64,000 nucleotides of DNA from the NCBI GenBank assembly GCA_015179125.1, contig WHVA01000412.1, positions 1-64,000 of the forward strand, read 5' to 3'. The notes below the pieces were generated by a model. It was not told the origin of the DNA and did no database searches. It saw only the letters and a list, made by a program, of their open reading frames with translations. How positions within the stretch are numbered: position 1 is the first letter of the stretch; each line of letters opens with the position of its first letter. A program made the translations under genes and the position numbers. Origin of the DNA: Gautieria morchelliformis. Lineage: Eukaryota > Basidiomycota > Agaricomycetes > Gomphales > Gomphaceae. Below, piece by piece: positions 18,743 through 53,735 of the stretch.

Positions 18743-18775
18743 GTATTATCTGATTCCCACCCGATAACTATCACT

Positions 18776-25125: not shown

Positions 25126-25687
25126 TGTTGCGATACAATCCGTCGTAAGGTTGACCGAGGTCGGGAGCAAAACCCGAGGTAAGGTCCGAGGTTCTGGGGC
25201 GAGGTTTGGATGGGGAAGTCGGAGAGGGACTTGGCTTCAGCTTATGTGCTGCGCTGACCCTATGCATGAGTCCCAATTTCGGAGGCAAACGAATAAGAGG
25301 CGAGGTTTGGCTTAAGAGGCGAGGCTTAGAAACTAGCTAGGGATCGAAGGGATACGATAGTTGATTTTCAGATAGAGGAGTAGGAATGCATACAAGGGGG
25401 GTTATATACGAGCGAGGGTACGAGTCAGGGGCGAACATATTAGTGGAGGTCAGGGTGAGGTCAGGGGGCCGAGGTCAGGGCGAGGTAATATATGAATGAT
25501 GCGTGATGGAGCGGAATCAGTAACTAAGGGATTACGGTCATGGGTTCAAGGTCGGATATGAGCTCAAGCTCGGGCTTGGGCTCGGGCGCGGATAAGGATC
25601 ATATGTACTCGGGCATGAATATCACAAGGCTCGGGCTCGGAAGAAGGTTTTACCGGTAAGTAACCGGCCAAAGGCCGGGTTCTTACA
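25126..25687 (-). repeat. 3' LTR of element C
   Basis: 562 bp, with ends TGTTGCGATAC and GGTTCTTACA on the plus strand. It contains nine CGAGG words on the plus strand and none noticed in the reverse orientation. Confidence 0.9.
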
Positions 25688-25859
25688 GTATCCCCTCCTT
25701 ATGGCCGAGACCCTCGAGGCCGTAATATGAACAAGGTTCGCCTATCCTCGAATCTAGATCCCGGCCAGATGTTAAGTAGCCGGAAGGCGAAGCTTAAATT
25801 GTAGCCGAGGTTAGATAAAAGGGTGGGTAGGAGGCAGCGAACCCAAGTGCCAACGAATA

Positions 25860-27038
25860 TGGTGTGCCCTCAAGCCCTCTTCAACTCAGCCGTCGACGAG
25901 GACAGCGCGAACAATGCGTTCGACCAGACATTGCTGTCTGCGGAGAACGGAGCCTCGGGCGAGGTTATGCCCGAGGATTGACCCGAGGTTGGCACATTGC
26001 CAGTTGATGAGACGGGGGCCATTGACATGCGGCAGCCGTGGCAGGAAGGGCCGAATGGAAAAAAGGCGAGTACTGTTGTTGGCTGGTCATGGACGCTGCT
26101 GATTTATACAGTATAAGCGCATCTTGTTTTCGTACCACCCAACCGACTTGTCCCTATACAGGTACAAGCTCACCGACGGGGGACCTCGTGAGTGGCAACT
26201 CGCGACCAAGGCCGAGGCGAGGTGCGTGCGCTGCGAAGAGCGCAACTATACGTGCCTTCGGGCCATTAGCCTCGACTTCGGCCTCGCCGACCAGGGTGCC
26301 TGCATGTGGTGTAGGACACGTTCCTTGGGCTGTAGTATAGCCCAAGGTCGTCGCAGAAAGGCGACCCCAGGAAAAGGTCAGGCGAGTGCCGTGGGCAAGA
26401 AGCGAGCGAGGAGCGAGGATACCGAGGATGGACCGAGGCCGAGGAAAGAGGCCAAGGTTCGGGACGAGGTTGCAGAGGACGACGACTCAAGCGACTGGGT
26501 CGAGAGGAACCTCGAGACGAGGGTGGAGCGGATGGAAGCGAGGTTGAGCGAGGAGAAGGGTAAGGGGTCAGAGGGAACAAGGCATAGTGAGGGAAAGGAA
26601 GCCGAGGTGGAGGAAACCGAGGTGGAAGGTCGGAGGGTGAAGAAGGACAAGAAGACGAAAAGGTCGGAGCGAAGTGCAGAGATGAGGGAGTTGATAGCAG
26701 CGGTGAGGGATGTGGGACAGAAGGTGGGCGAGGTTGGGGAGAGGGTGTGCGAGTTGTTGGGGGAGTTTAGAGCGGCGAATGACAGGATGAACAGGGCAGA
26801 TGTGGAGTTCATGAGGATAAGGAGGAGGCGGAATTATTTGAAACGGATGCAGGGGGCGAGGGACTTGGCGGATCATGAGGGACATGGGGGTCTGGTGGAG
26901 CGAAGTAGCAGTAGTAATGAGGAGGAGTCAGGCGAGGGTAGCGAGGAGAGCGAGGGAGAGGATATGAAGATGTTGAGTAAACTACTAAGGGAAAAATGGA
27001 ATTTCTTGGATTTTATTGATTTTGTTGTTCGGTTGTGA
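25860..27038 (+). CDS. Convergent antisense gene of element C, Zn2Cys6-like protein
   Basis: Plus-strand coding region opposite to gag-pol, between the 3' LTR and the pol stop (about 27095). The long open part is 26124-27038 (304 codons). Cysteines near residues 33-77 follow CX2CX6C (CVRCEERNYTC), 15 residues, CX2CX6C (CMWCRTRSLGC), the half-spacings of fungal Zn(II)2Cys6 clusters, with a somewhat long loop. Then come a Lys/Arg-rich part, a Glu/Lys-rich predicted coiled coil (RMEARLSEEKGKG; ELIAAVRDVGQKVGEVGERV) and an acidic Ser-rich tail (SSSSNEEESGEGSEE). Role unknown; DNA binding is inferred. The beginning (25860-26123) is uncertain. The counterpart in A2 is at 34060-35283. Confidence 0.6.
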
Positions 27039-27094
27039 GGGGATTTTGTTATCTAGCTACTGGGTTCATGGGGGTTAAACAAGGAAACGATCAT

Positions 27095-30000
27095 AGAGCC
27101 GTCAAAGGTCCCGGTTTGCCCGGATAAGACTCGTGGAAGTCAGTGACCAGCTCTGAGGCATTATCAAGCTCGGAAGCGAGGATCCACAGGTTTCTTCGTG
27201 GTACCTTCGTAACCAGTCCACCTGACAAGATAGAGTAACTTGCAGCTCTTGCGTCTATTATCGATCTTCGAGTGGAGGATTTCAGAAACCTCGAACTCGG
27301 GTTGCCGTCGATAACGACTGGGGGCGGAGGCGGCTGGACTCGGTTCGGGATGGTGTTGGGCAGGCTGGTTCGAGCATAGATACGTGGAATACTGGATGGA
27401 CTGAATGCATGTGTTCTGGAAGTCGAAGGGTGAAGGAGTGAGTACCCGCTTGGGAAATGATCTCAAAAGGACCCAAGAACTTCTCGGCGAGCTTCTTGGT
27501 AGGCCGAGTTGTTCGGAAGTACTGTGCCTTTACAAAGGCGAGGGATCCGATTTGGAAATCAGGAGCGGGTTGCGGCGAACATCGGCCGAGGCTTGGTAGG
27601 TCTTCTGAGCCTCGAGGATGGCGCGGCGAAGTTCTTGGTGAAGCTCGTCCAGGTCAACCACGAAGTCTCGAGCCCGTGCCGAGGCGAGGTCGCGCTCGGG
27701 GTGAACTGCGAGGTTCGGATGGTAACCCTTATTAGCAAAGAATGGGAGATGCCGGTGGTTGCGCTAGGCGCATTGTTGTAGGCGAACTCAGCTAGGGGAA
27801 GGAGCGAGGCCCAATTGGACTGCTGATAGTTGCAATATATCCTGAGGTACTGTTCCAAGGTCTGGTTAGCGCGCTCGGTTTGACCGTCACCCTCGGGATG
27901 ATATCCCGAGGTGAAATGCAACCGCATGTCCAAGGCTTTCCCTAGGAACGCCAGAAGTGCGAGACGAACTCGGAACCCCTGTCCGAGGTGACGTGCGAGG
28001 GAATCCATGCTTGGAAAAGACATGAAGGACGAAGAGATGAGCGAGTTCTTGCGAGGTTATCTTGTCTGTGGTTGGAATGAAGATAACCTGCTTAGTGAAG
28101 CGGTCAACAATCACTAGGATGGAGGTGAACTCGGATGAAGGGGGAAGCTGCTCAATGAAATCCATAGAGATGGAATTCCAAGGCTTCTCGGAATGGGGAG
28201 TTGTTTGAGAGACCATAGGGCTTGTGACGTTGCGGCTTGCTTCGCATACAAGTGGTGCAAGTCTTGCAATACTCTTTGACAAAGGATCTAATCCCTGGCC
28301 AAGTGTAATCTCGTCGGATCAACTCCAAGGTCTTGTTGACCCCGAAGTGTCCCGAGAGAATGTGGTCGTGCTTGTATTGCAGGATGCGAAGTCGAAGGTC
28401 TTGGGCCGCTGGAACATAGGTTCGGTTGTCAAGCTTGAGAAGCCCTCGGGGTCTGTGGTCCACCTCGGGTCATTAACCAAGCCGAGGTGCGACTTGGCTA
28501 TGGGGTCCGAGGGGAGGTTTGCTAGTATGTCAGCTCGGATCTGCTCGGTATCAAGCAGTGAAGCGGCTCGGAGTACGACGGGAGCGAGGTTAGTAGCTCT
28601 AAGGGACGATGCCAGCTGGTGTTGGGTAAACACTGGCCGTAGGTTCTGTGGGTTTATGGTGGCATAGTCGCTATTCCCCTCTTTAAGGTAGACGTCCCAT
28701 CGTCTAGTGAGAGAGTCAGGCTTCGTTCCGAGGCGACCAGGTCGGAAACGTATGGCGAGGTTGAATTGGGAAAGGTATTCTGACCACCGAGCTTGTCGAC
28801 GGGTCAAGAGCTTCATTGTTGAAAAGTATTCGAGGTTCTTGTGGTCGGTGATAACGTCGACAGGGTCGCCAGAGCCCTCGAGGTAGTGTCGCCAGCGTTG
28901 AAAAGCTTCAAAAATGCTAGGAGCTCCTTGTCATGAACATCGTAGTTGAGCTCAGTAGAGGTGAATGTGCGGGAGTGGAAAGGGACGGGATGAAGTTCGC
29001 CTTCCGAGGTTCGCAGTGATAAGATTGCCGCTAAGGCATAATCTGAAGCATCAGTCTCTACGATTAGTGGAAGGTCAGGAATCCAGTGGGTAAGGATAGG
29101 AGCGGTAGTGAACGCCTCTTCAACAGGTTGAAGGCCTGCCGACAATCCTCGGAAAAGTTCCAAGGGGTACCCTTGCGGGTGAGTCGGGTGAGAGGAATGG
29201 TGATGTCGGAGTAGTTGTGAATGAAACGTCGGTAGAAGTTGGCGAAGCCGAGGAAGGATTGGATGTCGCGAACTTTGCGAGGTTCAGGCCAGTCTTGAAT
29301 GACCTTTACCTTGTCGTCCGCCATAGTGAGGCCCTCGGGAGAGAGTATGTAGCCGAGGAATTCAACCGAGTCGCGATGAAACTCGCATTTATCTTCTTTG
29401 GCGAAGAGGTTGTTGAGTCGCAGTCGTCGCAAGACTTCCTTGACATGTTCAACATGTTTGGAGGGGTCACTGGAGTAGATTAGAATGTCATCCAAGTATA
29501 CCACCACACAAACGTCCAAAAGGTCGGCGAAAATCTCGTTCATGAATCTCTGGAAAGCAGCAGGGCCATTAGTGAGACCAAATGGCATAACCAACCATTC
29601 AAAAGACCCATAGCGAGTCCTGAAGGCGGTTTTCCATTCGTCACCCTCGGCCACCCGTACGAGGTGGTAAGCGTGACGAAGGTCAATCTTCGTATAGATG
29701 CGAGCATTCTTTGGAGCATCAAGTAAGTCAGCAATCAATGGCAATGGATACCGATCTTTTTTGAGATCTTGTTTAAACCTCGGAAGTCGACACACAACCG
29801 AAGTGAGCCATCTTTTTTGCGAACAAACAATACCGGTGCACCATGAGGCGAGCGTGAAGGTCGGATGAAACCGATGTTCAAGTGCTCGTCGATGAACTCG
29901 CGAAGTGCTTTGAGTTCGGAAGCCGAGAGAGAGTAGATGGGACCGATAGGCGGCGAGGTCCCTTCTTCGAGGTTGATTTTGATATCGTGGGGTCGGTGGG

Positions 30001-30712
30001 GAGCTAGAGTGTCAGCGCGTGCTTTGCTGAACACATCTGCAAATTCGTGATATACTTCGGGAACATGTTTCTTAACGTTCTCAGAAAGCTCGGAGGAACT
30101 TCTCCCGATGTTGCCCCTCTGGCGAGGAGCTCAGGCGAAGCCAGATTGAGCTGAAACACTTCGGACCCTTCCAATCTAGATGCACGCATGAAAGCGGGTG
30201 CATTGATTAGGGAAACGAGCGGTGCTTGCAACTTCGGAGGCGAGTTCGGAGCAGGTCGAGGCGGGGCGAAGATGCCGTAGGCGAGGTCGAAGTCGTAGCC
30301 GAAGCTGAGCGGCTGACGTCGCCGTGGTCGCTGGAGTCGTAGTTAGGTCGATGGTCTTGAAAGTAATACTGCCCAATACCCAGTCAATCGACGGATTGTA
30401 GCGGGTGAGCCAGTTGTGGCCAAGTACCATCGAGCAACTCGAGTCGAGCGAGGTTACGTAGAAGGTAACCCATTGTTGTTCGCCAGTCGGAAAGCAAATG
30501 CAGAGGTCTAGAGCTTGGGTAATGGTAGTGTTAGTACTACCGTCAAATAGTTTCAAGGGTATAGGAGAGACAGGATAAGCAGGCATAGAGTACTTCTGGA
30601 CAAATCTGGATTCAATAAAACAATCTGAGGACCCGCAGTCAACTAATGCAACAAAAGCGACGTTGGGGAGCGAAGGCGAGGTTAGATCTACATTAAGGGA
30701 ATCTTTGGACAA
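27095..30712 (-). pseudogene. Pol region of element C (protease to chromodomain)
   Basis: On the minus strand, in order: protease with LVDCGSSDCFIESRF (about 30640); RT with [13 protein letters not shown] (about 29500); RNase H with [16 protein letters not shown] (about 29060) and [12 protein letters not shown]; integrase with CKTCTTCMRSKPQRH (about 28260), SMDFIEQLPPSSEF and [16 protein letters not shown]; then a chromodomain (FEVSEILHSKIDNRR, LYLVRWTGYEGT; about 27290-27200). The chromodomain places it with the chromoviruses. Broken, several breaks. Confidence 0.9.
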
Positions 30713-31980
30713 TGAATGAGAAGCGGGCTGAGTCTGAGCACACGGGTGAGGTTACCGCAATCCTCGGATCGTGTGGTTCCGAGGTTGCTACCTATTTTTT
30801 CACCTCCGTAATGGAGGCCGAAGTCCCCTCGTTAGGGGTCTTCGCTGCCCGACCTTTAGAACCGCTACCGCTGGTAGACTTGTTCTTCGGGCAGTCCTTG
30901 ACGATGTGGCCTTTGGTGCCGCAAAGCAGACAAAGGCCTTGGTCGACCCGACGTTGGCGCTCCTCGGGAAGTAGTTTGCCATCCTTCCCGAGCTTGCTCG
31001 AAATGTCGGGCTGGCTCTTGTTGTTCGAAGAGTTGTTGTTGGAACCCTTGCCATGTTGTTAGTCTTGTTGCGGTTCTTATTGTTATTGGAACCGCTGGAA
31101 GACTGGTTGTTGTTAGTGGCATTGCTGCTGGACTGATTAGCAGTGGGTGCAGCTGGGAGTTATGACCATTGATCATGGCGTCATATTCCTTACGCTCCCA
31201 GTAACGGCTGTCGCATTCCAGCGCGAAGTTCCTAAGCTCGGCGAGGCTGCGGAATCGAGGGAAGTGAAGTAAGTCGTCCTTGATTCTTTTGGCCAAGCCC
31301 TTGTAGGCGAAGTGTCGGAGGGCCGCATCGTTCCACTGAGTCCGAGTCGAAGCTCGGGCGAAGTCGATAAAGAATCGCGCGGCCTTGTGGTGCTCTTTCA
31401 TGACGATCTTCTCGAGGTCGATCTCGGCTTGGGCGGCGTTGTCGTATGGGCCGAAGTTGAGCTCGAGTTCGGCCTTGAAGCTGTCCCAGTCCTCGAGCCA
31501 GTCTGGCTCGGGCTGGACTTCGCCGAGGATCGCCGGCTCGAAGTACTGTAGAGCTGAGCCCGACAGGTAAGAAATAGCATACTGCACCTTCGAGGCCCCA
31601 GTCTTGAAAGCTGTGGGACGATCTCGAAAGTTGAGCACGCATTGAAGGAAGAAGGTGCGAAGCTTGGCCTGGTCAGTACCGTCATAACTATCCGGTTCCT
31701 TGACCTTGGCTCGTGCTTCAGACTCGCGAGGTTTCGCGAGCTTGATGAACACTCGACGCATAAGCTCGTTGTCCTCGAGGTCACCGAGGTCCTCGGGTGG
31801 CAGGTTGGGGAGGTCCTCATCATTGTCAGAACTTCCTGAGCCATCACCTGGATCACCTGAAGGGTCACCGGGGTTAGCCTACCTTTGCCTTTGTTACTAG
31901 GCTCGGTGGGGTCAGCCAGGGGTATCCCCGGGACGGTGGTGAGTCGTCGGGGGCTTCTGAGAAACGTCGTTGTTCTGATA
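30712..31980 (-). pseudogene. Gag region of element C
   Basis: Capsid-like core with YDGTDQAKLRTFFLQCVLNF and YFEPAILGEVQPEPDWLED, a C-terminal Ser/Asn-rich linker, and a zinc knuckle at about 30930-30880 on the minus strand. It is similar in plan to the A gag but clearly a different family. Broken. Confidence 0.85.
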
Positions 31981-32012
31981 TACCCCGAAGGGTGTAAGCA
32001 GTCTGAAAATAC

Positions 32013-32572
32013 TGTTACGATACGATCCGTCGTAAGGTTGACCGAGGTCGGGAGCGAACCCGAGGTAAGGTCCGAGGTTACGGGGCGAGGTTTGGATGGG
32101 GAAGTCGGAGAGGGACTTGGCTTCAGCTTATGTGCTGTGCCGACCCTACGCACGAGTCCCAACTTCGGAGGCAAACGAATAAGAGGTGAGGTTTGGTTTA
32201 AGAGGCGAGGCTTAGAAACTAGCTAATGATCGAAGGGGTACAATAGTTGATTTTCAGACTGAGGAGTAGGAATGCATACAAGGGGGTTATATATGGGTGA
32301 GGGTACGAGTCAGGGGCGAACATATTAGTGGAGGTCAGGACGAGGTCAGGAGGCCGAGGTCAGGGCGAGGGAATATACGAATGATGCGTGATGGAGCGGA
32401 ATCAGTAACTAAGGGGATACGGGCATGGGATCAAGGTCGGATATGAACTCCAGCTCGGGCTTGGGCTCGGGCGCGGATAAGGATCATATGTACTCGGGCA
32501 CGAATATCACAAGGCTCGGGCTCGGAAGAAGGTTCTACCAGTAAGTAACCGGCCAAAGGCCGGGTTCTTACA
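32013..32572 (-). repeat. 5' LTR of element C
   Basis: 560 bp, ends TGTTACGATAC and GGTTCTTACA on the plus strand; matches 25126-25687 along its whole length. The sequence beyond it (32573) belongs to a different Gypsy RT fragment. Confidence 0.9.
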
Positions 32573-33244: not shown

Positions 33245-33937
33245 TGTTACGTATCGAGATTTCCACTAAGTCGGAACTGGAAAGGACAGCGGCTTCAACT
33301 TATAGGTTGCGCCCCCAATGAACTATCGTCCTAGGTATTTCGGAAATGAGCCGGAAGTCGGAAAGTGCTGGACCAGAGGTTTGGTCGGAACTTGAGTCGG
33401 AACTGAGGCGGAAGGCGGAAGACGGAAGGCTGAGAGAGAGACTGAGATCTTGCTAGACTCGCTGTGCTAAGAACAGGAGATGGAGCGAAGGAAATCAAGT
33501 ATCGAAGGTGATTATCTGATTGCAGAATAACAGACATACATGAGGGGGGTTTTATACAAAGTGCAGAGCAACAAGTAATGGTGTTGTACTAAACAAATTC
33601 CGGAGGAAGCGGAAGTCGAGTACAATGTGTGGGAACTAACTAATTGGGAACAATGGGACTACAAGGGGGGTTCAGGGTAAGGTAGAACAATGGCAAAGAA
33701 CAAGGGGTCGGGAAAATATATCTGACAACGAACTACAAGGGTGACCGGATATATGGTTTTGATGAATGGCGAGGTAGATCCGGTGGGTCCGAGTAATAGA
33801 GTCGAAAGAACAAGGGAAATGTACAAGTGGCGGAATGGCGGAAATGTCGGAGGGGCGGAACGTGTGGCGGAACTATTGGAGAGGCGGAATGTATGGCGGA
33901 ACTGAGGGTCGGAAGTCGGAAATGAACGGTCGTAACA
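33245..33937 (-). repeat. 3' LTR of element A2
   Basis: 693 bp, TGTTACGTATC to GGTCGTAACA on the plus strand. By hand count it has 18 CGGAA on the plus strand against 1 TTCCG. Confidence 0.92.
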
Positions 33938-34059
33938 GTATCTCCCTTCTAAGGTCGAGCCCCGCGAGACCACAAGTCGGAATCACGTGACCTATGAACA
34001 AACGCGTCGGAGTTTGAAATATAGGCTGAAAGACAAACACGTCTTCTCTCTATTCCATC
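33938..34059 (+). promoter_or_regulatory. Probable promoter of the antisense gene of A2
   Basis: Between the LTR and the first ATG (34060) lie a CACGTG E-box (about 33974), an A/T-rich TATA-like ATATAG (about 34020) and a CT-rich stretch just before the ATG. This is a compact fungal-type promoter arrangement reading away from the LTR. Inferred from motifs only. Confidence 0.4.
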
Positions 34060-35283
34060 ATGAGTGCCCCAGTAGATTTCTCTAAGATGTCCAGCGCGGA
34101 GATGAAACAGCACTTCGCTGATATGCTCGCGCAAAAGGAAATGGCCGAGAAACGCGAGGCTGAGGAAGCTGCGCGAAAGAGAAAGAACGTCGGGAGAAGG
34201 AGCGGAAGGAGCAGGAGAGGAAAGAGCGCGAACGCCGCGAGGAGGAGGAGCGCGTCCGTGAAGAGAAACGGAAACGGAACGCGGCACGGAAGGCTGCTGC
34301 GGACAAGGCTGCTGCAGAGAAAGCGGCTGCGGAGAAAGCGGAAAGGGATCAGGTGAGTCGGAAATGTCCGGCGGAAATGATCTTAAAATTAACTAGAGTT
34401 CTTCCAGAATCATGTTCAGGACGAGTCAGAGTCAGACTCGGAAGGTTCGGCGGAAAGTACACCGACTCCGGAAGGAAAAGGGAAGCAAAAGGAGATTGCG
34501 ACCCCGGTGAACCTTGTGGCGGAACGGAAAACTCGAGCGGACGCATTCCAGAAGGCTCGAAAGGAGAAGTTGAGTCGGATGTTAGAACTCCGTGAACTGG
34601 GGCCGGAGAATCCCGCGACTAAGAAGCGGAAAACTCGGGACGGCGATGAGGAAAAGGCCCCTTGTGACCCATGCGAGTCTAAGGGGGTGGATTGCACGTG
34701 GTCGAGCAATCCACGGGAAACGTCGTGCGACCAGTGCCGTGACAGGAAAAGGCGCTGCGTCGTGGACGGGTGCGCTTCGAGGCTGGAGCGAAAGAAACAG
34801 AAGGTTGAGGAGTCAAATCCGAAGGCGGAACCGGGACCGAGCGGAGGGAGGGCCGAGGAATCCTTTCCGGTGACCGGAAAGTCGGCACAGGCGGTGTTGA
34901 ACCGGTTCACCATGGCTTCTCCGCTCCTCGACATCGCCGGGTCGCTGAGGGCCATGCGGGAACGCAACGCGAAATCCGGGATATCATGATCGATATGGCC
35001 GAGGTTCAACAGCATCAGGTTCTGTCGATTCAGAACCAGATGACTGTTATGTCCACAGTGCTACAGCAGTTGACGCGGGAAATGAGGTGGCGGAATGATT
35101 TGGTCGGGACCGAATGGATGCGCGGCTGCGGGAGCAGGGAGTTGGGGCGGAACGGGTTCGAGCGGTGGGGCGGAAACGAGGGAAAGGGTGGAAATGGAGT
35201 TGGTGAGTGTCGAGGTAGGGGAGGCGGAAAAAGAGCCGGAAGCGGAAAAAGAGGTCGAGGCGGAGACAATGGGGGAGGAGTAG
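34060..35283 (+). CDS. Convergent antisense gene of element A2, Zn2Cys6-like protein
   Basis: Plus-strand coding region opposite to gag-pol. The start ATGAGTGCCCCAG at 34060 leads into a Lys/Arg/Glu-rich helical segment (KMSSAEMKQHFADMLAQK). A second open stretch (34507-34989) has cysteines CDPCESKGVDC, 10 residues, CDQCRDRKRRC, that is CX2CX6CX10CX2CX6C, within the range of fungal Zn(II)2Cys6 clusters, including the CxxCRxRKxxC form. It continues with hydrophilic, Gln-rich then acidic sequence. It ends about 130 bases before the pol stop (35413). The frames are not continuous; I have not joined them. The same position and layout occur in element C. Confidence 0.6.
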
Positions 35284-35412
35284 GTGTATCAAGGACTTAT
35301 AGATAATTTCTTGAAGTGTCGGAAAATAGAGTAACGGGAAATTAATCGGATTTTGACAAATGACTTGAGAACTGTAAGAATCAATGGGCGTCGGAAATGA
35401 GGTCGGAAATGA

Positions 35413-38400
35413 CTAGGGCGTGGAAATGGGGCCAGGCTTGTCAGGATATGACTTGTGGAAATCAGAGACGAGGTCAGAGGCGTGGTCAAGTTCCGTGGCG
35501 GAAATCCACGAAGTCTCTTCGTCAGTGTTTTCATAGCCTGCCCACTTGACTAGGTACTGGAGTTGGCAGCGGTATCTTCTGTCGAGCTTGGAGTTGAGAA
35601 TTTCCGAAATCTCATATTCCGGTTCTCCGTCGATGAGACTGGCGGAGGCGGAGGTTGTTCTCGATTCGGAATTGTATTCGGAACTGCGGGTTCAAGCATG
35701 GAGACATGGAATACCGGATGTACTGCGCGCATATTGTCAGGAAGTTGAGGGTGAAAGAACGACTGCCGGCCTTAGCGATGATCTCGTAAGGACCGAGGTA
35801 TTTCTCAGAGAGCTTCTTCGAGGGGCGAGTGGTGCGGAAGTTTTCCGCTTTGACAAAGGCTTTGTCGCCTATCTCGAATGCCGGTTGCGGAAGGCGTTTC
35901 CGATCGGCGGAAGTTTGGTATCTCTTCTGGGCAGCGGTAATGTTCTCTCGGAGGTGCTGGTGAAGGTCGTCAAGTTCCACAACGAAATCTCGGGCTCTTG
36001 CAGAGGCGAGGTCGCGTTCAGGGTGGATGGCGAGATTCGGGTGGTAGCCCTTGTTGGCATAAAAGGGTGAAATTCCGGTGGTAGCGGAAGGCGCGTTGTT
36101 GTAGGCAAATTCCGCGAGCGGAAGAAGGTCGGACCAATTGCTATGTTGGTAGTTGCAATAGACGCGGAGATACTGCTCAAGGGTCTGATTAGTACGTTCC
36201 GTTTGTCCGTCTCCTTCGGGGTGATAACCGGAAGTGAAGTGGAGTTTCATGTCGAGAGCCTTGCCGAGTGTGCGGAAAAAGGAGGACACGAATTCGGATC
36301 CACGGTCGGAAGTGACATGGGAAGGGATTCCGTGCTTGGAAAAGACGTGGAGCACAAAGAGCTGTGCGAGCTGGGCGGAAGTTATGGTGTCGTAGGTCGG
36401 AATAAAGATGGACTGCTTTGTAAGGCGGTCAACGATCACTAGAATGGTATCATAGCCGGATGACTTAGGAAGTTTCTCAATGAAATCCATGGATATCGAA
36501 TTCCACGGTTGTTCCGGGATCGGAAGTTGCTTCAGGAGGCCGTAGGGTTTGTGACGTTGAGGCTTGGCTCGCATACAGGTGGTGCATGACTTGCAGTAGT
36601 CTTGGACCATCGTGCGGAGGAGAGGCCAAGTATAGGTACGTCGGATTATGTCGAGGGTCTTGTTCTGGCCTTGGTGTCCTGAGAGCGGATGATCGTGGCT
36701 TTGCTGGAGCACGCGAAGTCGTAGATCGTTGGTGTCCGGAACGTAAATCCGGGACTTGTACCGGAGAAATCCGTCGGAATCGAGGGACCATCCAGGACTG
36801 GTGGGGTCATCGAGGTGGGTTGCGGAGGTGGGGTCGGAACGGAGTGCGGAACGGATGTCGGAATGGAGAGACTCGGTGTCCATAATAATTGAGGCGCGGA
36901 GTAGCGGAAACTGCAATGCTGTGGCACGCAGGGACGATGCCAGTTGCTCAGTGGAGAATACTGGGCGGAAATTGTGCGGATTAACGCTGGCATAGTCGCT
37001 ACTTCCCTCTTTTGGGTAGACGTCCCAACGTCTAGTGAGCGCGTCGGGTTTTGCTCCGAGCTTTCCGGGGCGGAAACGGATCACCATGTTGAACTGTGAG
37101 AGGTATTCAGACCAGCGGACTTGACGGCGAGTCAAAATCTTAGTGGTTGCAAAATACTCAAGGTTCTTATGATCCGTTACAACGTCGATCGGATAAGTTG
37201 GACCTTCGAGGTAATGTCTCCAGATTTTGAAGGCTTCGAAAATCGCAAGTAGTTCCTTATCGTGGACGTCGTAGTTGAGTTCCGGGGCGGAAAAGGTGCG
37301 GGAATGAAAGGCGATCGGATGAATTTCTCCGTCGTCGGGTGAAATGATGGAAAGAATGGCGGCTAGCGCGTAGTCAGAAGCGTCGGTTTCGAGTACAAGT
37401 TGGGCATCAGGAATCCAGAAACCGAGTATGGGAGCCGTGGTGAAGGCCGATTTGAGGCTTCAAATGCGGAACGGCATTCCGGTGTGAAATTCCATGGGGC
37501 ACCCTTCCTGGTGAGACGCGTGAGCGGAACAGTAATGTCGGAAAAATTATAAATGAAACGCCGGTAAAAGTTGGCGAAGCCAAGGAAAGACTGCACATCC
37601 TTAACACGTCGGGGTTCCGGCCATTCTTGAATTGCCTTGACCTTGTCCTCTGCCATGGTAAGACCTGTTGGAGAGAGGATGTAGCCGAGGTATTCGACCG
37701 TGTCGCGATGCCATTCGCATTTCTCTGCTTTTGCGTAGAGATGGTGTTTGCGTAGGCGGCGGAGTACTTCGCGGACATGTTCCCGATGTTTTTCCGGTGT
37801 GTCGGAATAGATGAGGATGTCGTCAATGTAGACTAGAACGCATACGTCGAGGAGGTCGGAAAATACGTCGTTCATGAATCGCTGAAAAGCGGCGGGAGCG
37901 TTGGTTAGACCAAAAGGCATGACAGTCCACTCAAAGGCACCGTAGCGGGTGCGGAAGGTGGTTTTCCACTCGTCACCTTCCCGGATGCGGACAAGGTGAT
38001 AAGCGTGCCGGAGGTCAATTTTGGTGTAGATCTTCGCCCTGCGGGGAGTGTCGAGTAATCGGAAATGCGCGGAAGCGGATATTTGTCCTTTTTAGTGAGG
38101 GCATTGAGTCCGCGGAAATCGACGCAGAGGCGGAGAGATCCATCCTTCTTCTTGACGAAGAGGACCGGAGCGCCGTGCGGAGACAGCGAAGGGCGGATAA
38201 AGCCCATGTTGAGATGTTCATCGACGAACTCTCGGAGAGTTAGGAGTTCACTTTGCGAAAGAGAGTAGATCGGTCCAAGGGGCGGAGATGCTCCTTCTTC
38301 CAATCTATCTTCAAGTCGTAAGGTCGATGTTCAGCAGGTTTGTCGGCTTTGGCCTTATTGAACACGTCCGGGAAGTCACGATATTCTTCCGGAACTGAGC

Positions 38401-39000
38401 TCATGTCGACCGGAGCGGAAGTCGAGGCGGAACGAGCCTTGACTGAAGCCGAATCGGAGAGGTGAAGCTGGAAGACGGTCGTATCATCTTGCCGTTGCAA
38501 TACGCGGAAAGCGGTGGCGGAAACGAGCGCAATTCGAGGGGCTTCGAGGGGCGGAGGTGCTAAAGCGGGACCGGAGTGCGGAACTGAATCCACGAGCGGA
38601 GTTGCAGAAGAGGCCTGAGCCATCTTTGCAGAAGACGTCGGAATAGACGGAAGTTGATCCGGGGTACGGAACTGTATTTGACCCAATGCCCAGTTAATCG
38701 ACGGATTATATCGGGTGAGCCAATTGTGTCCTAGTACAACGGAACAGCTAGCATCTAGCGGAGTAACGTAAAACGTAACTTCATGGTTGTCCCCAGTAGC
38801 GAAACGGATAGACAGATCCACAACTTGGGAAATTCCCGTGTTGGAAGACCCGTCGAAAAGGCGGAGCGGAATAGTCGGAATGTTGCGGGTCGGAAGTTTA
38901 TGTTTCAAAACAAAGTCGGAATCGAGGAAACAATGAGTCGAACCGGAGTCGACCAATGCTGTAAACGGGGGTGCGGAAATGGTGTCGGAAGTGAGCGGAA
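35413..39000 (-). pseudogene. Pol region of element A2 (protease to chromodomain)
   Basis: Minus-strand order: protease with MVDSGSTHCFLDSDF (about 38950); RT with [13 protein letters not shown] (about 37820) and [22 protein letters not shown] region; RNase H (about 37400-37100); integrase with CKSCTTCMRAKPQRH (about 36590), SMDFIEKLPKSSGYD and [16 protein letters not shown] (about 36200); chromodomain close to 35640-35480, then a short tail with stop at about 35413. Broken, several breaks. Confidence 0.9.
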
Positions 39001-39079
39001 CAGAGAGGAGTCGGAGGACGAAAGAGCGGATGCGTTGAGTTTAACCTCGTTTGTCGCACGAATGGGGTCAACACAGCCC

Positions 39080-40536
39080 TCAGCTCGTGCGGAGGCCGGA
39101 GGACTGCTGACTATTTTTTTGAATCCGCAGCGGGAACCGCTTCGGATTTCTCTTCCGTCTTTGCTGCGCGGCCTTGGCCTTAGCAGCGGAGGCGGAAGCG
39201 CGAGTGCAGTCGCGAGCGACGTGACCTCCTTTGCCGCAGAAGAGGCAAAGGTTGTTGTCCATGCGACGCTGGCGTTCTACAGGGGTTAGTTTTCCGTCTT
39301 TCCCAAGTTTGTCGGAAAGATCCGGGGTGCTCTTCCGGGCATTGGTGTTAGAACCAGAGGCCTGGTTGTTCCGAGGGGTGTTGTTGTTGTTCCGGTTGCC
39401 GGAGTTGGATCCGGAACTGTTGTTGTTGTTGTTTCCGGAGTTGGTGTTTCCGGAATTGGTCTTCTTCTTGTCTTTATCAGACTTCTTGTCGGAAGACTTG
39501 TCGTTCTTGCTCTGGGCGGAGGTTTCACGAGCAATCTCGGAGTGTCTTTCCCAGTAGCGCGAATCGATGGATTGGGCGAGGTTGCGGAGGTCGGTAAGGG
39601 TGGCGGGTTTTCCGACGCGGGCAATTTCATCCTTGATGCGGGATGGCAAGCCCATGTAAAACTGGCGTCGGAGTGCGGCTTCTCCCCATTGGACTCGAGG
39701 AGCGAGCTGCTGAAACGTGACGATATATTTAGCTATCTTATGAGTGTCTTTCATGCGAAGCTTATCGAGTTCGTTTTCCGCATCGGCTTCCATGTCAAAT
39801 GGTCCGAAGTTGCTGCGGAGTTCGGAAATGAAATTGGGGTAATCGTCGGCCCAGTCGACGAGAGCGAACGGATCCATGAGGGCGGGTTCGAAATAGTCGA
39901 GCGCCGTGCCTCGGAGATAGGAAAGGGCATAATTGACCTTTCGTTCGTCGTCGGGAAAGGCGTCGGGACGATCACGGAAATTGAGTTGAAGCTGAACCAG
40001 AAATGGCTGGAGCTTCTTGGGGTCGGAACCGTCGAACTGATCTGGTTCGCGGACCTTGTCTTGGGGCGTGGTGGTGCTTGGGCCGGGCGCTGGAGTTGTC
40101 CGGCTAGCATGGCGATGGCTTGTGCAAGATCCGGAACTGGCGCGGGCGGAACTGGGTTGGCGGGAATCTGAGGTGGAATTGGAGGTGGAGGACCGCCGGG
40201 AGGACCGCCTGGGGGACCGCCGGGTGGGCCGCCATGAGGGCCGCCTGGAGGTGGTCCTGGTGGAGGTGGTGGTGGTGGAGCTGGGCGTCGGAATGACGCT
40301 GCTGTTTGTTCGCCGCTGCTACTCGTTGAATTCCCGTCGTAGTCGGGATTTTCGTCGGGATTAGCGTCGGGAACTTCTTCGAATCGTTGCGGAAAAGCAT
40401 CGGAAAGCTCATCGTCGGCACGAGAGCTGCTGGTGGGTTCCGCGTGCCTTGGTGCTGCGGATCTAAGATTGCCAAAATAAGAGAGAGCTTCGACAGCTCC
40501 TGCTCGAGCTGAAGTAGCTGTGGTACGAGGAGGCAT
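39080..40536 (-). pseudogene. Gag region of element A2
   Basis: Nearly the same protein as the A1 gag: start MPPRTTATSARAGAVEAL, proline/glycine-rich linker, capsid-like core, Asn/Ser-rich linker and zinc knuckle CLFCGKGGHVARDC. Not open from end to end in this copy. Confidence 0.9.
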
Positions 40537-40569
40537 AGTGATAGTTATCGGGTGGGAATCAGATAATAC

Positions 40570-41252
40570 TGTTACGTATCGAGATTTCCACTAAGTCGGA
40601 ACTGGAAAGGACAGCGGCTTCAACTTATAGGTTGCACCCCCAATGAACTATCGTCCTAGGTATTTCGGAAATGAGCCGGAAGTCGGAAAGTACTGGACCA
40701 GAGGTTTGGTCGGAACTTGAGTCGGAACTGAGGCGGAAAGCGGAAGACGGAGAGACTGAGATCTTGCTAGACTCGCTGTGCTAAGAACAGGAGATGGAGC
40801 GAAGGAAATCAAGTATCGAAGGTGATTATCTGATTGCAGAATAACAGACATACATGAGGGGGGTTTTATACAAAGCGCAGAGCAACAAGTAATGGTGTTG
40901 TACTAAGCAAATTCCGGAGGAAGCGGAAGTCGAGTACAATGTGTGGGAACTAACTAATTGGGAACAATGGGACTACAAGGGGGGTTCAGGGTAAGGTAGA
41001 ACAAATGGCAAAGAACAAGGGGTCGGGAAAACATATCTGACAACGAACTACAAGGGTGACCGGATATATGGTTTTGATGGATGGCGAGGTGGGTCCGGTG
41101 GGTCCGAGTAATAGAGTCGAAAGAACAAGGGAAATGTACAAGGGGCGGAATGTCGGAAATGTCGGAGGGGCGGAACGTTGCGCGGAACTATTGGAGGGGC
41201 GGAAGGAGTGGCGGAACTGAGGGTCGGAAGTCGGAAATGAACGGTCGTAACA
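40570..41252 (-). repeat. 5' LTR of element A2
   Basis: 683 bp, TGTTACGTATC to GGTCGTAACA on the plus strand; matches 33245-33937 with small insertions and deletions. Rich in CGGAA like its partner. Confidence 0.92.
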
Positions 41253-45633: not shown

Positions 45634-46096
45634 TGTCAGGGGACACCCTGTTTTCCACTTCCAGTTCCGACTCCATTTCCGACTCCGCTTCCGGTTCCGA
45701 TTCCATCTCCGCCTCCGCTTTCGGAAATGATTCCACTTCTGGGAGAACTTCCACCAGTTCTGTTCGCCTTTCCAGTTCCACTCCAATTTCCGACTTCCAC
45801 TCTCGGAACAGTGTCGGAAATCAAGCGACTCACATAACAGGTGGCATCAAGGGTCGATCAAGGGTCAGGGAGGTGCAGGGTTGATGGCGGGTGCCAAGTG
45901 TTGTCCCTGGCTGCGCAGCGTAGTATAATACGGGCTCGCTGACATTGGGGGTCCTTAGACTTTTCTCTTTGGATTTCCCATTGTCAGGTGAGAATCCCCT
46001 CTCTTGTATACTCTGCTCATTTATACATACTTTGGATTTCCCCTTGTCAGTTGTGTGGTAGTGTGATCTCCACAACCAGCCAGGGTTACCCTTACA
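45634..46096 (+). repeat. 5' LTR of element B
   Basis: 463 bp, TGTCAGGGGACACC to GGTTACCCTTACA. Slightly shorter than its partner in the TTCCG-rich first part. Confidence 0.92.
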
Positions 46097-46211
46097 GCAG
46101 AAAAGTCTCTCCCCTAGAAGACCGGCAGTCGTACTGCGCGTTGCATTCGCCATAGGTGCGTTCGGAATCGGAGACAGCGACTCGGAGATCGCAACCTCTT
46201 CCACACACACA

Positions 46212-48226
46212 GTGTACGACAGCCCCTCTTCTTACGTCGAGCTCCAAACCCCGGAAATCCCGTCCCATATTTCTCCTTCCGACATGGATCCGGATGATCG
46301 TCTTTGGAATATGGAGGAGGAACTGACGCGGAACCGGATGAAGACCGACGCGATTGAAACAGCCTTACAAGCGATTTTGGCTAAGTTAGATATTCCACAA
46401 AGTAGTGGAAATGAAATGCTGGATGATCCGGATTTCGGAAAAGCTGAAGTAGCGGAAGAGAGGGTCTCCGCAAAGTTAGCAAAGGTCAAACCCGCAACTC
46501 TGGCGGACTTTGACTGAGATCGGGAGAAGGGACGCGCATTCTTCAACACATGCAGCATCTACTTCGCAATTGTCGGAGACCTCTTTCCGAACGACCAGGC
46601 TCGGATTCACTGGGCATTGTCCTTTTTCAAGTCGGACCGCGCAGCCCGTTTTGCAAACAAGGTTATCCGACATGAAGCAAAGGGCAAGGGGAACTACTTC
46701 CGGGACTGGGACGCCTTCGAGAAAACATTTTCCGACCAGTTCTGCCTGAAAAACGAGCAGCTCACAGCCCTTACGAAGCTCGAGGGGACCAGCTGGTACC
46801 AGGCCAAGGATCCGGTCGATGACTACATTGATCGCTTCCAGGAGCTCATCGACCTTGCGGAGTATGACGACGACAAGACGATCGTCATCAAATTCCGATG
46901 AGGACTTGATCCGACACTCCAGAACCAAGTTGCGCTGCTTGGGGATGGAGCTCCGGATTTTGATGACCCGGAAGGGTGGTACCAAGCTGCGCAGAGGGTG
47001 TCCCGGAACAGGGAAGCAAACGAGGGCTTTGTGGAGACAAACCGGAACATGACACGCAGTTCCGCTCGTCCTACTCCACCTGTGCCGAAACCCGGAAGCA
47101 CATTCATTCCCACACGGAAAATATTTCCGACGGTTGCTCCGCCTGCTCCTGTTAGGAACCCTAGCCCCCCTCCCTCGAAGAGTGGCCCTGCCCCTATGGA
47201 TGTTGACCGCATGCACGGAAAAGGCCGCGGAACTATCACCTGCTTCCGATGTCGACAACCAGGCCACTATGCTCGCGAGTGCCCCCAAGCCTTTGACATC
47301 CGGCTTATGACCACAGAGGAGAAACTCGAGCTCCTTCCAGAGTTCCTCGCACTTGCAGACATAAGCGGAGTGCCCACTGCGGAAGGAATTTCCGAAAATG
47401 CGGAGCATGGTCCACCGGAAGCGGAGGATGCGTCGGATTTTGTGACGCGCAGCGAGTGAGATGTGTGCCCCTGCTGCCTGTACATAACAGGTTTGCCTGT
47501 CTTGAAGTAGAGAATGAAAAGCCCCCACTCCCCTCACTTCATACAGACCCACCAGATAAAGTCACACAAAAACCAAATCCGACACCCCGTCCATCCCGCA
47601 TCCGCCCTTGGGAGAAACGCCTTCCGAAGCGCTATGTTGTCGCTGCCACCCCTGGCCCCAAGTCACTAGTCATTACGGTGGAGATCCAGACGACAGATAC
47701 GGCGGAAGTCAAATCCGGACCCGCCCTTGTCGATTGCGGGGCCGCTGGTCAGTTTATAGACCGGGACTATGTGGAACGGAACCGACTGACCATGCGGAGG
47801 TTGCAACGTGCAATCCCGGTGTTCAATGTGGATGGAAGCCCCAATGAGGCAGGGTCCATCACGGAGATAGTAGACACAATTCTCCGCTACGATGGGCACT
47901 CGGAACGCACTTCCTTTGCAGTCACCAGCCTGGGGAAGCAAGACATCATCCTCGGGTTTACCTGGCTTCAGGAGCACAACACGGAGATCAATTGGCAGAC
48001 TCGGAAGGTACTGATGAGTCGATGTCCAGCCAAGTGTCACATGTGCCGGTCGGAAGTGCAGAAGGAACGCCAGGAGCAGCGGAAGACCGAACGGCTCATA
48101 CAGACATGTCGTTCTGGCCCCCATCCACTGCTTGCAGAAGAAGACTCGGAAGCTGAATTTGAACCGTATCCCACTTCCAATTCCAATTCCAATTCCGACT
48201 CCAACGTCATCCGACTCGGCCCGTAA
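46212..48226 (+). pseudogene. Gag and protease region of element B
   Basis: Gag: N-terminal acidic part with LTRNRMKTDAIETALQ, a capsid-like core (ALSFFKSDRAARFANKV, YFRDWDAFEKTFSDQFC, DDYIDRFQELIDLAEY) and a CCHC knuckle CFRCRQPGHYARECP (about 47244). Protease: ALVDCGAAGQFIDRDY (about 47730), VFNVDGSPN and IILGFTWLQEHN. Broken. Confidence 0.88.
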
Positions 48227-48250
48227 GACACTCTGGCGGAAGGGGAGCGC

Positions 48251-51200
48251 TTGCTGTACGTAAACCTTCTGCCGGAAGCGGAACACATCCACCCCACCGG
48301 AAATATTTCGCAACGCCTTGCTGAAACCTCCAAGAGGCATGATAGAGTGGAGGCGGAAATTCCAGAGTACCTGCGGGAGTTCGAGGATGTCTTTTCCAAG
48401 GAGTCGTTTGATGCCCTGCCTGCACGGAAGCTGTGGGACCACGCCATTGAGTTGGAGCCTGGGTCAAAGCCCACCAACTGCAAAGTCTACCCGCTGTCAC
48501 CCAAGGAGCAGGTAGAGCTCGATGCATTCCTTGCGGAAAACCTCCGCACAGGGAGGATCCTCCCCTCCAAGTCATCCATGGCATCTCCGGTGTTCTTCAT
48601 CAAGAAGAAGGACCGCTCGCTCAGACTTGTGCAGGATTACCGAGCCTTGAATGTGATCGCGATCAAGAACCGGCACCCCATTCCACTCATTTCCGAACTA
48701 ATCACACAACTCCGTGGGGCAAGGTACTTCACTAAGCTGGATGTCCGCTGGGGCTTCAATAATGTTCGGATCCGAGAGGGAGATGAGTGGAAGGCCGCAT
48801 TCCGCACCAACCGAGGACTCTTTGAGCCGCAGGTCATGTTCTTCGGCCTCACTAACAGTTCCGCCACATTCCAGACGATGCTGAATGACATTTTCCGTGA
48901 GATGATAGCAGAAGGGGTTGTCTGCGTCTACCTCAATGACATCCTGATCTTCACAAAAACAATGTCCGAACATCGGGAAGTCGTGCGGAGAGTCTTGGAA
49001 CAGCTCCGGGAATACAACCTGTGTCTCAAGCCGGAAAAGTGCGAATTTGAGCGGACGCGGATGGAGTATCTTGGGGTGATTGTGTCGGAAGGAAAGGTAG
49101 AAATGGACCCAGTCAAAGTTTCCGGTGTGTCGGATTGGCCTGTGCCGCGGAACAAGAAGGAGGTCCAGTCCTTCATTGGGTTTGTCAATTTCTACCGGCG
49201 GTTCATCAAGGACTTCTCCTGCCACGCCCATGCCCTCCTTGACCTCACCAAGAAGGAGGTTGGATGGCAGTGGGGAGAGCCGGAACAGGCCTCCTTTGAC
49301 AAACTCAAGGAGCTGATCACTTCTGCCCCGGTCCTGATCTTTCCCGACGACTCTCACCCTTACCGAGTCGAGGCAGATTCTTCCGACACAGCTACCAGAG
49401 CGGTCTTGTCACAACAGTCACCGGAAGATGGTGGGGGGTGGCATCCGATTGCCTTCTTCTCTAAGAGCCTGAGTCCGGTTGAGCGGAACTATGAGATCCA
49501 TGACAAGGAGATGCTGGCAATCATCCGAGCACTGGAGGAGTGGCGACATTGCCTCGAGGGTGCTCTATGCCCATTTGAGATCTGGACAGACCACAAGAAC
49601 CTTGAGTATTTCCGCACGTCTAAGAAGTTGAACCGACGACAAGCACGGTGTTCCCTACACCTGTCCCAGTTCGACTTCATGCTCCACCACCGCCCCGGCT
49701 GCACCATGGGCAAGCCTGATGCCCTATCCCGCCGCGCGGATCATGGAAGCGGAAGTGGAGACAACGTGGATATGACACTGCTCCGCCCAAGTCTCTTTGC
49801 AATCCGTGCCCTAGAGGGAGTGACTGCAGTTGGGGTGGAAGCGGAAATGCTCCGGGATATCCGGAGGCAGTACCGGAATGGAGAAAAGGAGGAGTCGGTG
49901 GTGAAGGCAGTGGAGGAACTTTGGAAAGGGCACGCACGATCCGTATGGGCAGCGGAATGGTCGAAACGTGATGGACTGCTCCACTTCAGAGGCAAGGTCT
50001 ACGTTCCAGGTGGTGCGGACCTCCGCCACCGCATCGTGTCCCAGCACCATGACACACGGGTCGCTGGGCATGCTGGCAGGTGGAAGACACTGGAGTTGGT
50101 GGCTCGGAATTACTGGTGGCCCCAGATGTCCCGCTACATTGGACAGTACGTGAAGACATGTGACCTTGGTCTCTGAACCAAAGCACAACGACATCCGCCC
50201 GTCGGAGAACTTGTTCCACTCCCGATTCCCGAATCCTGCTGGGACACCATCAGTGTCGACTTCATCGTTGAACTCCTAGAGTCTCATGGCTACGACGCGA
50301 TCATGAACGTCGTGGATTCGGTAAGCAAGGTGTCCCACTTCATTCCGATGCACACGACGATCACAGCCCTCGGAGCGGCCCGCCTGTTCCTTGCACATGT
50401 CTGGAAGTTGCATGGGCTCCCGAAGCAAGTTGTTTCCGACCGAGGTCCGCAGTTTGTCGCGGAACTGACTCGGGAGCTCTACCACCTGCTCGGCATAAAG
50501 CTGGCTACCACCACAGCATACCATCCGCAGGGTGACGGACAGGCGGAACAGGTCAATCAGGAGTTGGAGCAATATCTCCGCCTCTTTGTCAATGAGAGGC
50601 AGGATGACTGGGATGAGTTACTTCCACTGGCGGAATTCCAATACAACAACCATGTACATTCCGCCACACAACAGACTCCCTTCATGCTTGACTCCGGACG
50701 ACACCCGTGGATGGGCTTCGAACCATGCCAGGCTGAGTCCTGACTCGACACGGTCAATGAGTTCCGAGACCGCATGGACTCCACCCTTTCGGAAGCCAAG
50801 TCGGCCCTTGCAAAGGCCAAGGATGACATGGCAAGGTACTACAACCAACGCCAGGTTCCCACCCCAGAGTACCAAGTTGGAGACAAGGTGTATCTAGATG
50901 CAAGTGACATCCGCACCACACGCCCCTCGCAGAAGCTTGCCCACCGCTACCTTGGGCCCTTCACAGTGACGCGGAGGGTTGGACGGAATGCATACCGCCT
51001 CCGACTTCCGATGTCCATGTCCCGCCTCCACCCCGTCTTCAACGTGGTGAAGTTACTCCCTATGCTTGAGGACCCAATTCCAGGTCGGAAGGCTCGTCCG
51101 CCACCTCCGCCGGAAATTGTAGATGGGGAAGAGCACTATGTGGTGGAACGGATCCTGGACAGCCGGTTTGTGCGAGGACGACTCCAATTCCTCGTGAAAT

Positions 51201-51340
51201 GGGAAGGGTATTGGTACGAGGAAAATTCGTGGGTCCCAGAGCCAGATGTTTCTGCTCCAGACAAACTCCGTGAGTTCTATAGGACACACCCCGGTGCCCC
51301 TCGCTGGATCCGCTCGTTGGCATTTCAATCCCTCATGTCC
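48251..51340 (+). pseudogene. RT, RNase H, integrase and chromodomain of element B
   Basis: RT: SLRLVQDYRALNVIAIKN, VCVYLNDILIFTK (the catalytic box), FIGFVNFYRRFIKDFS. RNase H: YRVEADSSDTATRAVL and YEIHDKEMLAIIRALEEW. Integrase: zinc-binding part near 50090-50165, then VSDRGPQFVAEL and GDGQAEQVNQELEQYL. Chromodomain: YVVERILDSRF, LQFLVKWEGYWYEENSWVP (about 51138-51240). Broken. Confidence 0.9.
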
Positions 51341-51377
51341 CGTGCTTCGAGGACGCAGCACGCTAGAGGGGGGGTGA

Positions 51378-51862
51378 TGTCAGGGGACACCCTGTTTTCC
51401 ACTTCCAGTTCCGACACCACACCCAGTTCCGACTCCATTTCCGACTCCGGTTCCGGTTCCGATTCCATCTCCGCCTCCGCTTTCGGAAATGATTCCGCTT
51501 CTGGGAGAACTTCCACCAGTTCTGTTCGCCTTTCCAGTTCCACTCCAATTTCCGACTTCCACTCTCGGAACAGTGTCGGAAATCAAGCGACTCACGTAAC
51601 AGGTGGCATCAAGGGTCGATCAAGGGTCAGGGAGATGCAGGGTTGATGGCGGGTGCCAAGTGTTGTCCCTGGCTGCGCAGCGTAGTATAATACGGGCTCG
51701 CTGACATTGGGGGTCCTTAGACTTTTCTCTTCGGATTTCCCCTTGTCAGGTGAGACTCCCCTCTCTTGTATAGTTTGTTCACTTATACATACTTTGGATT
51801 TTCCCTTGTCAGTCAGTTGTGTGGTAGTGTGATCTCCACAGCCAGCTAGGGTTGCCCTTACA
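51378..51862 (+). repeat. 3' LTR of element B
   Basis: 485 bp, TGTCAGGGGACACC to GGGTTGCCCTTACA, preceded by a purine tract. The first third is a run of TTCCGACTCC-like words. Confidence 0.92.
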
Positions 51863-52229: not shown

Positions 52230-52327
52230 TGGGAACTGCCAGACAGTTCCCATGCACGAACTGTACAGTGGGTCCCTAAGGGGCCCACTGGCATTAGCTG
52301 AGCTACTATGTACATAGGTTATTTACA
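52230..52327 (-). repeat. Second copy of the short hairpin LTR
   Basis: 98 bp with the same ends (TGGGAAC; TTATTTACA) as 7886-7994. The first hairpin is GGGAACTG/CAGTTCCC where the other copy has GGGAACC/GGTTCCC; the second hairpin, CAGTGGGTCCC TAA GGGGCCCACTG, is unchanged. No clear target duplication. Confidence 0.55.
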
Positions 52328-53641: not shown

Positions 53642-53735
53642 ATCCGATCATAGGAACACCATTGTATCATGTTTGAATACACAACTAATAACTTACTTAG
53701 TCGTTATCTGGTTCAATGCACGTGAGGGTCGGTCT

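Follow-up and report, generated by a model that had tools for sequence, protein, structure and literature searches.

A conserved convergent gene for a Zn2Cys6-like protein and element-wide CGGAA saturation in a Ty3/Gypsy retrotransposon family of Gautieria morchelliformis

The window analysed here is a stretch of 64,000 nucleotides from the fungus Gautieria morchelliformis (assembly GCA_015179125.1, contig WHVA01000412.1, positions 1 to 64,000, forward strand). It contains a chromodomain Ty3/Gypsy retrotransposon, element A2, on the minus strand at 33245-41252. We found that A2 carries, between pol and its 3' long terminal repeat (LTR), a convergent plus-strand gene of two exons (34060-35283) that encodes a Zn2Cys6-like protein and is kept under purifying selection in its family (family A), while the pentamer CGGAA saturates the whole element, coding DNA included. 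A second family, B, pairs a convergent gene of its own with a different motif, CGAGG(T). With moderate confidence, we propose that the convergent gene serves the retrotransposon as a functional component and that its protein reads the family motif, for an anti-silencing purpose like that of the VANC proteins of Arabidopsis VANDAL elements, which are DNA transposons. An earlier note on this DNA had suggested a convergent Zn2Cys6-type gene between pol and the 3' LTR and had pointed to the many CGGAA of the element, and our analysis supports that reading with the qualifications given below. The features of A2 are as follows.

33245..33937, minus strand: 3' LTR (TGTTAC...GTAACA), with 18 CGGAA on the plus strand
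33984..33989, plus strand: CACGTG ahead of exon 1; 39 of 41 copies have one in this upstream region
34060..34352, plus strand: exon 1 of the convergent gene, ATG at 34060, MSAPVDFSKM..., lysine/glutamate-rich, one frameshift in the window copy
34353..34407, plus strand: intron of 55 nt, GTGAGT...TTCCAG, with two CGGAA inside
34408..35283, plus strand: exon 2 of the convergent gene, stop at 35281-35283, two frameshifts in the window copy
34663..34758, plus strand: Zn2Cys6-like cluster CX2CX6CX10CX2CX6C, sequence CDPCESKGVDCTWSSNPRETSCDQCRDRKRRC, including a CxxCRxRKxxC half
34885..35136 (approximate), plus strand: long predicted helix, residues 160-243 of the exon-2 model of copy L009, read as a coiled coil
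35413..35637, minus strand: chromodomain, C-terminal part of pol, stop codon at 35413-35415
35413..40590, minus strand: gag-pol, split into several frames
40570..41252, minus strand: 5' LTR (TGTTAC...GTAACA)

The exon limits in the window were set by comparison with other copies. The gene and pol face each other across a gap of 129 bp with zero overlap, which bears out the convergent arrangement described in the earlier note; the frame named there, 34507-34989, is only a segment of the full gene. Its E-box upstream of the gene is also real, as the CACGTG listed above. We searched 122 Mb of genome in 1113 contigs. With the window protein as query, 150 matches out of 584 candidates were scored, 134 of them free of internal stops, and a query from a more distant A subfamily (L051) gave 135 scored of 748. 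Among 41 separate copies that were fetched, the intron donor GTGAGT was found in every one and the exact acceptor TTCCAG in 35. The same frame was kept as an open two-exon gene of 371-396 aa in 32 of the 41, a sample biased towards intact genes, since 30 of these copies were the best matches; two of the 32 (L044 and L048) have altered last residues. By its place between pol and the 3' LTR, its opposite strand, its conservation and its many copies, the gene fits the class of antisense additional ORFs of LTR retrotransposons named aORF-3R.

Selection on the gene was measured on exon 2. Fifty loci, less five in which the frame or the contig ended early, plus L051, gave 46 sequences, 36 of them unique, from which 15 were hand-picked and compared in all 105 pairs by the Nei-Gojobori method. 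The ratio of nonsynonymous to synonymous divergence (dN/dS) was 0.07-0.36 in 104 pairs and 0.52 in the remaining one, as expected of purifying selection, for which the earlier note had named a value below 1 as the check. In a frame control on six pairs, the true frame gave 0.08-0.21 and frames +1, +2, -0 and -2 gave 1.03-3.35; frame -1, a mirror of the true frame in its variable positions, gave 0.19-0.41. The dN/dS values and the frame controls rule out a chance or decayed frame. For pol of the same elements, 15 pairs gave 0.15-0.67, and the gene was lower in 14 pairs and equal in one, although the pol values of the five pairs that involve L043 look inflated. For several pairs of copies, synonymous divergence was higher in the convergent gene than in the pol of those copies (for example 0.32 versus 0.14 for L034/L044), a hint that elements have recombined or that synonymous sites in pol are constrained.

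The six cysteines of the cluster, and a seventh just downstream, are invariant among 12 aligned exon-2 proteins of family A, so that the pattern CX2CX6CX10CX2CX6C with its CxxCRxRKxxC half, proposed earlier, is real and is conserved between copies. The findings that the earlier note had named as refuting it, loss of the frame from other copies, neutral decay or unconserved cysteines, thus did not turn up. A strict scan for the cysteine pattern in six frames of the window returned only this site (34663), the gene of element B (26223) and a low-complexity repeat (2053 and 2062). Zn(II)2Cys6 clusters (PF00172) have the spacing CX2CX6CX5-12CX2CX6-8C and basic residues in their first half. The A cluster, with its X10 loop, lies within this range, but its net charge is -2 in the first half and +3 in the second, making the second half the basic one. 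The Pfam Zn_clus profile, a check suggested by the earlier note, did match three A sequences, at 17.2, 16.2 and 14.9 bits, all below the gathering cut-off of 21 bits. Because this cut-off was missed and the basic half is the second, we call the protein Zn2Cys6-like rather than Zn2Cys6.

Fungal Zn(II)2Cys6 regulators have a coiled coil after the cluster and bind CG-containing sites. The A protein resembles regulators such as PPR1, HAP1 and GAL4 in its six-cysteine spacing and in the predicted coiled coil that follows, and its candidate motif likewise contains CG; a predicted model of it aligns, weakly, to Zn2Cys6 domains, those of these three among others. It differs from such regulators in its basic second half, its score below the Pfam cut-off and its coding by a retrotransposon. 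A sequence search for related solved structures returned nothing at E up to 10. In the protein database, the core of the A protein had no match at E up to 0.1, and the sole match of the full protein, in a search whose sensitivity was probably limited by the low-complexity exon 1, was an N-terminal fragment, JB92DRAFT_3134898 of G. morchelliformis (89% over 7% of the query). This database protein starts with residues like those of exon 1 and continues with unrelated sequence, and is perhaps a chimeric gene model or an exonised insertion.

The richness in CGGAA claimed for the element proved real. By dinucleotide shuffles, CGGAA is the most over-represented 5-mer in the LTR (18 observed versus 1.7 expected), the gene region (25 versus 5.4) and gag-pol (62 versus 10.4) of family A. 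In the whole of A2, with strands merged, it occurs 151 times versus 28.8 expected (z 26.1), with 122 occurrences on the plus and 29 on the minus strand. Five further blocks of the window had top z values of 3.9-5.3 in four cases, and the fifth, 51800-54300, reached 9.0 with GCGAA, owing to a dispersed repeat described below. Window positions 1-4000, a tandem repeat, were excluded from the whole-element shuffle test; the compartment test gave a top z of 12.6 there. Genome-wide, triples of CGGAA with gaps within 8 bp numbered 9846, versus 387 for the reversed pattern. Local arrays also occur: in L048, from about 6880 to at least 7300 in gene orientation, LTR-like sequence holds a long (CGGAAGGCGGAAGA)n array with a motif about every 7 bp, and the pol of L044 holds a 12-bp array of CGGAA units in an otherwise open frame (G000:C2:271307-271551).

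To separate the motif from coding demands, we used synonymous codon shuffles, which preserve the protein and codon use but not neighbour-codon bias. In the open pol of L034, TTCCG, the reverse complement, occurs 48 times versus 15.1 expected (maximum 23 in 200 shuffles) and CGGAA 16 times versus 5.2, with a median gap between sites of 34 bp. Five open pol frames of family A were also analysed by codon phase: TTCCG lay above all 300 shuffles in two phases and equalled the maximum in the third, and in four of these frames, L048 being the exception, CGGAA lay above all shuffles in one phase. The pol of C, a further element of the window described below, passed for CGGAA in one phase and tied in two, and did not pass for TTCCG. 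In exon 2 of the A gene, CGGAA exceeded all 500 shuffles in four of seven sequences and tied in one; L029 and L050 failed, the gene of L050 being separated from its pol. Ranked by codon shuffles with strands merged, CGGAA came first among 5-mers in A and C. Codon usage as the source of CGGAA is ruled out by the synonymous shuffles together with the phase test.

The motif contains a CpG. Between the two LTRs of single insertions, CpG transitions made up 62 of 174 differences in 15 pairs, nearly all of the differences in L044 and L046 and few in A2, L032 and L037, and because such transitions are frequent, A copies seem to be methylated. Motif CpGs were not protected after insertion (31 of 230 decayed versus 31 of 281 other CpGs, 13 pairs). 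Between LTRs of different copies or subfamilies, the motif was kept at 307 of 394 sites versus 1550 of 2303 for other CG-containing 5-mers; both directions were counted, and the motif was better kept in 10 of 13 pairs, which are not independent. Retention between copies despite ordinary decay after insertion suggests that CGGAA is maintained by selection in the active lineage. The observed/expected ratio of CpG is 1.22 in A2, 0.99 in B and 0.82 in C, and 0.58, 0.63 and 0.92 in three other stretches.

Element B has the same arrangement with another motif.

25171..32572, minus strand: Gypsy element B, LTRs at about 25171-25687 and 32057-32572, motif CGAGG(T)
26106..27038, plus strand: convergent gene of B between pol and LTR, an open frame with an approximate 5' limit, six-cysteine cluster from 26223

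The reverse transcriptase (RT) of B is 72.5% identical to that of A, and its pol ends in a decayed chromodomain-like stretch (27312-27097). CGAGG occurs 103 times in B versus 23.6 expected (z 16.9); CGGAA shows no excess there (z -0.2), nor does CGAGG in A2 (z 0.9). By codon shuffles, CCGAG ranked first and CGAGG second in the pol/gag pieces of B, and CGAGG first in the B gene. Genome-wide, CGAGGT triples numbered 887 versus 340 for the reversed pattern. A same-strand CGAGGT triple within 2 kb upstream was found for 8 of 9 B genes and 0 of 28 A genes among those listed (contigs C1-C154), which shows family specificity, due in part to common descent of the LTR. The B cluster has two CX2CX6C halves with an X15 loop, beyond the PF00172 spacing, and a net charge of 0 in the first half and +2 in the second. 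The Pfam Zn_clus profile did not match the B protein, and its cluster part had no protein-database match at E up to 10; in the predicted model, a long helix (133-219) follows a cluster modelled at a pLDDT of about 40. Genome-wide scoring of 142 out of 525 candidates for the B gene gave 153 matches. Most of those listed are interrupted by a stop codon, typically one TAA, and we take this TAA to be the normal stop of family B, ahead of the end of the window frame. No third gene-bearing family was found in the window, where it was sought by the cysteine pattern only. Since family B, absent from the earlier note, has a gene and a motif to itself, the motif is no mere coincidence. On the same sequence grounds, the two families agree with a hallmark of VANC systems, in which related families have different dense motifs and a protein each; confinement of the motif to non-coding DNA, another such hallmark, does not hold for A, with its excess in gag-pol.

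A third element carries the A motif without a gene.

45634..51716, plus strand: Gypsy element C with a chromodomain-like end, CGGAA-rich on both strands

CGGAA occurs 87 times in C versus 14.8 expected, 52 and 35 times on the two strands. The RT of C is 45.8% identical to that of A and 44.7% to that of B. No convergent gene was found in C, whose chromodomain-like end near 51301 and LTR near 51360 leave too little space for one. The element is abundant, with 150 genome matches scored of 4029 candidates, nearly all 94-96% identical. C may either free-ride on the A protein or carry a motif that predates the gene.

In the mechanism we propose, the Zn2Cys6-like protein of each family would recognise a short motif of its own, CGGAA in A and CGAGG(T) in B. 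The A protein, with its cluster and long coiled coil, would probably act as a dimer or oligomer. Synonymous change and local tandem expansion would each have contributed to the build-up of the motif across gag-pol, the LTRs, the intron and the accessory gene, allowing the protein to locate copies of its own family through motif density and to keep or re-open them for transcription in the face of host silencing, CpG methylation for example. A factor that holds kilobases open against spreading methylation should benefit from sites throughout, and a promoter activator should not. Binding of zinc and of DNA, reading of the motif by the protein and an anti-silencing direction of its action are what we infer from these patterns. 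More tentatively, fungal LTR retrotransposons may use a protein-to-motif code for self-recognition in which each family encodes a factor of its own and its entire sequence, reading frames included, has been rewritten with more than 100 5-bp sites for that factor, which would open no other kind, while gene-less elements such as C copy the motif and ride along; this would be an independent invention of a VANC-style system in a second kingdom by way of a fungal regulator fold.

Several other explanations deserve weighing. The protein could be a plain self-activator, switching on gag-pol and the convergent gene through CGGAA sites in the LTR in the manner of retroviral transactivators, the other sites being by-products. 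The convergent gene has the LTR, with 18 CGGAA versus 1.7 expected, immediately upstream, and the CACGTG between them is widely kept; we nevertheless think this unlikely, as an activator working from the LTR has no need of the gag-pol sites that exceed synonymous shuffles. The same anatomy and motif evidence would also suit a protein that coats its own family and limits it, as a self-repressor or as a control on copy number, and retrotransposons such as Ty1 do encode copy-number control proteins. It is hard to see, however, why selection would keep hundreds of sites in hundreds of copies for that end, and the abundance of similar, motif-bearing C copies suggests that carrying the motif aids spread, which leaves repression improbable. 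The motif might instead be some other signal, for RNA packaging, recognition by integrase or gag, or a host factor, older than the gene, with the gene a conserved accessory of unrelated function. Its presence in C, so distant from A and B in RT, and its strong strand bias in A favour this; an RNA signal should not be enriched on both strands as in C, and B, closer to A, pairs a different motif with a diverged cluster, so we rate this alternative as rather unlikely too.

Two remaining explanations would deny the motif or the gene a function. Tandem growth of CGGAA by mutation or slippage without selection could account for the arrays in L048 and L044. The sites in the L034 pol are scattered, however, and exceed synonymous shuffles, and the motif outlasts other CG 5-mers between most LTR pairs in spite of its decay-prone CpG; we consider such an artefact very improbable. 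The gene could be a captured host gene, a passenger or a chance frame, given the 17 canonical Zn_clus matches in the host genome. This is hardly credible for a gene with at least 150 scored copies, dN/dS mostly of 0.1-0.3, a retained intron with its splice sites and a counterpart of the same arrangement in family B; a captured passenger gene is ruled out by the copy number and the second family. A functional gene whose protein would read the motif, as described above, remains our preferred explanation.

Some observations concern the window copies themselves. A2 has the LTRs, gag, RT, integrase and C-terminal chromodomain of a chromovirus, to which we assign it by domain content: Pfam matched Retrotrans_gag, RVT_1, integrase and a Tf2-type SH3 in its gag-pol pieces, and the chromodomain was called by eye and by tblastn (38-40% matches with the terminal parts of B and C). 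Its LTRs are 95.7% identical by blastn (97.4% over ungapped columns), and its 5-bp flanks, GTCCT (33240-33244) and GCCCT at the opposite end, share four of five letters. Because the gene has three frameshifts and pol is broken, this copy is dead. A second A copy, on the plus strand at 18056-24002, lacks the pol end, convergent gene and 3' LTR and is broken by an insert of about 0.5 kb resembling the LTR of C; CGGAA occurs in it 104 times versus 19.8 expected. The window also holds 21-bp tandem repeats (174-388 and 3120-3523) and a dispersed 1.03-kb repeat (52612-53641) dense in GCGAA (13 versus 1.2 expected). When 40 of 4216 candidates were scored, this dispersed repeat recurred, nearly full-length and 91-93% identical, at 39 further places, almost never twice on the same contig; it could represent a solo LTR or a non-autonomous element that bears a third motif.

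The earlier note had regarded a Zn2Cys6-like antisense gene in a fungal chromovirus-like element as new. The position itself is known in fungi: brtn is an antisense gene of Boty-like elements in Botrytis (Zhao et al. 2011, via PMC8365987, PMC4227169, PMC7264820). Like the A gene, it lies antisense between pol and the 3' LTR of an element with a chromodomain gag-pol (PMC8365987, PMC7264820, PMC4227169, PMC5987419); unlike it, brtn belongs to an ascomycete, and the likeness is one of place and orientation, with no zinc cluster or motif described in the passages cited. What stands of the claim is the Zn2Cys6-like gene: in the open-licence literature searched, we found no fungal LTR element reported to carry a Zn2Cys6-like antisense gene or to be saturated with a motif, and no antisense gene paired with family-specific motifs. 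The plant aORF-3R genes (Grande gene23, RIRE2, Retand TRP28) share the place, orientation and conservation in most copies, and TRP28 is also predicted to bind DNA and has family-specific tandem repeats nearby (PMC7264820, PMC11963269). Retand, however, is a plant lineage outside the chromoviruses, its TRP28 is of a type other than the zinc cluster, and those passages describe no element-wide short motif.

VANC offers the closest functional parallel, with an element-encoded protein, a dense short family motif, different motifs in related families and tandem motif growth (PMC5735166, PMC10398659). AT9TSD1, an unrelated element with VANC6 motifs, parallels C with its A motif (PMC5735166). The VANC motifs reported there (YAGTATTAY, AGTTGT(C/A)C) exceed the A motif in length and are confined to non-coding DNA, whereas the A motif is also in coding DNA. 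VANC has experimental proof; the protein described here is a predicted one, Zn2Cys6-like and encoded by an LTR retrotransposon. TET/JBP dioxygenases of fungal DNA transposons, in Agaricomycetes too, are another proposed element-encoded means of escaping silencing (PMC12730594); as portrayed there they are enzymes, carried by DNA transposons, rather than sequence-specific binders.

Antisense genes between pol and the 3' LTR, in plants and in Boty, have had no assigned function so far (PMC7264820). The A and B genes bring candidate targets to this class, in two families with different predicted sites. If our proposal is true, anti-silencing by self-recognition arose beyond plants and beyond DNA transposons, is able to reshape synonymous sites throughout an element and is open to parasitism by elements that lack the gene. 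It would also supply small DNA readers of 5-bp sites.

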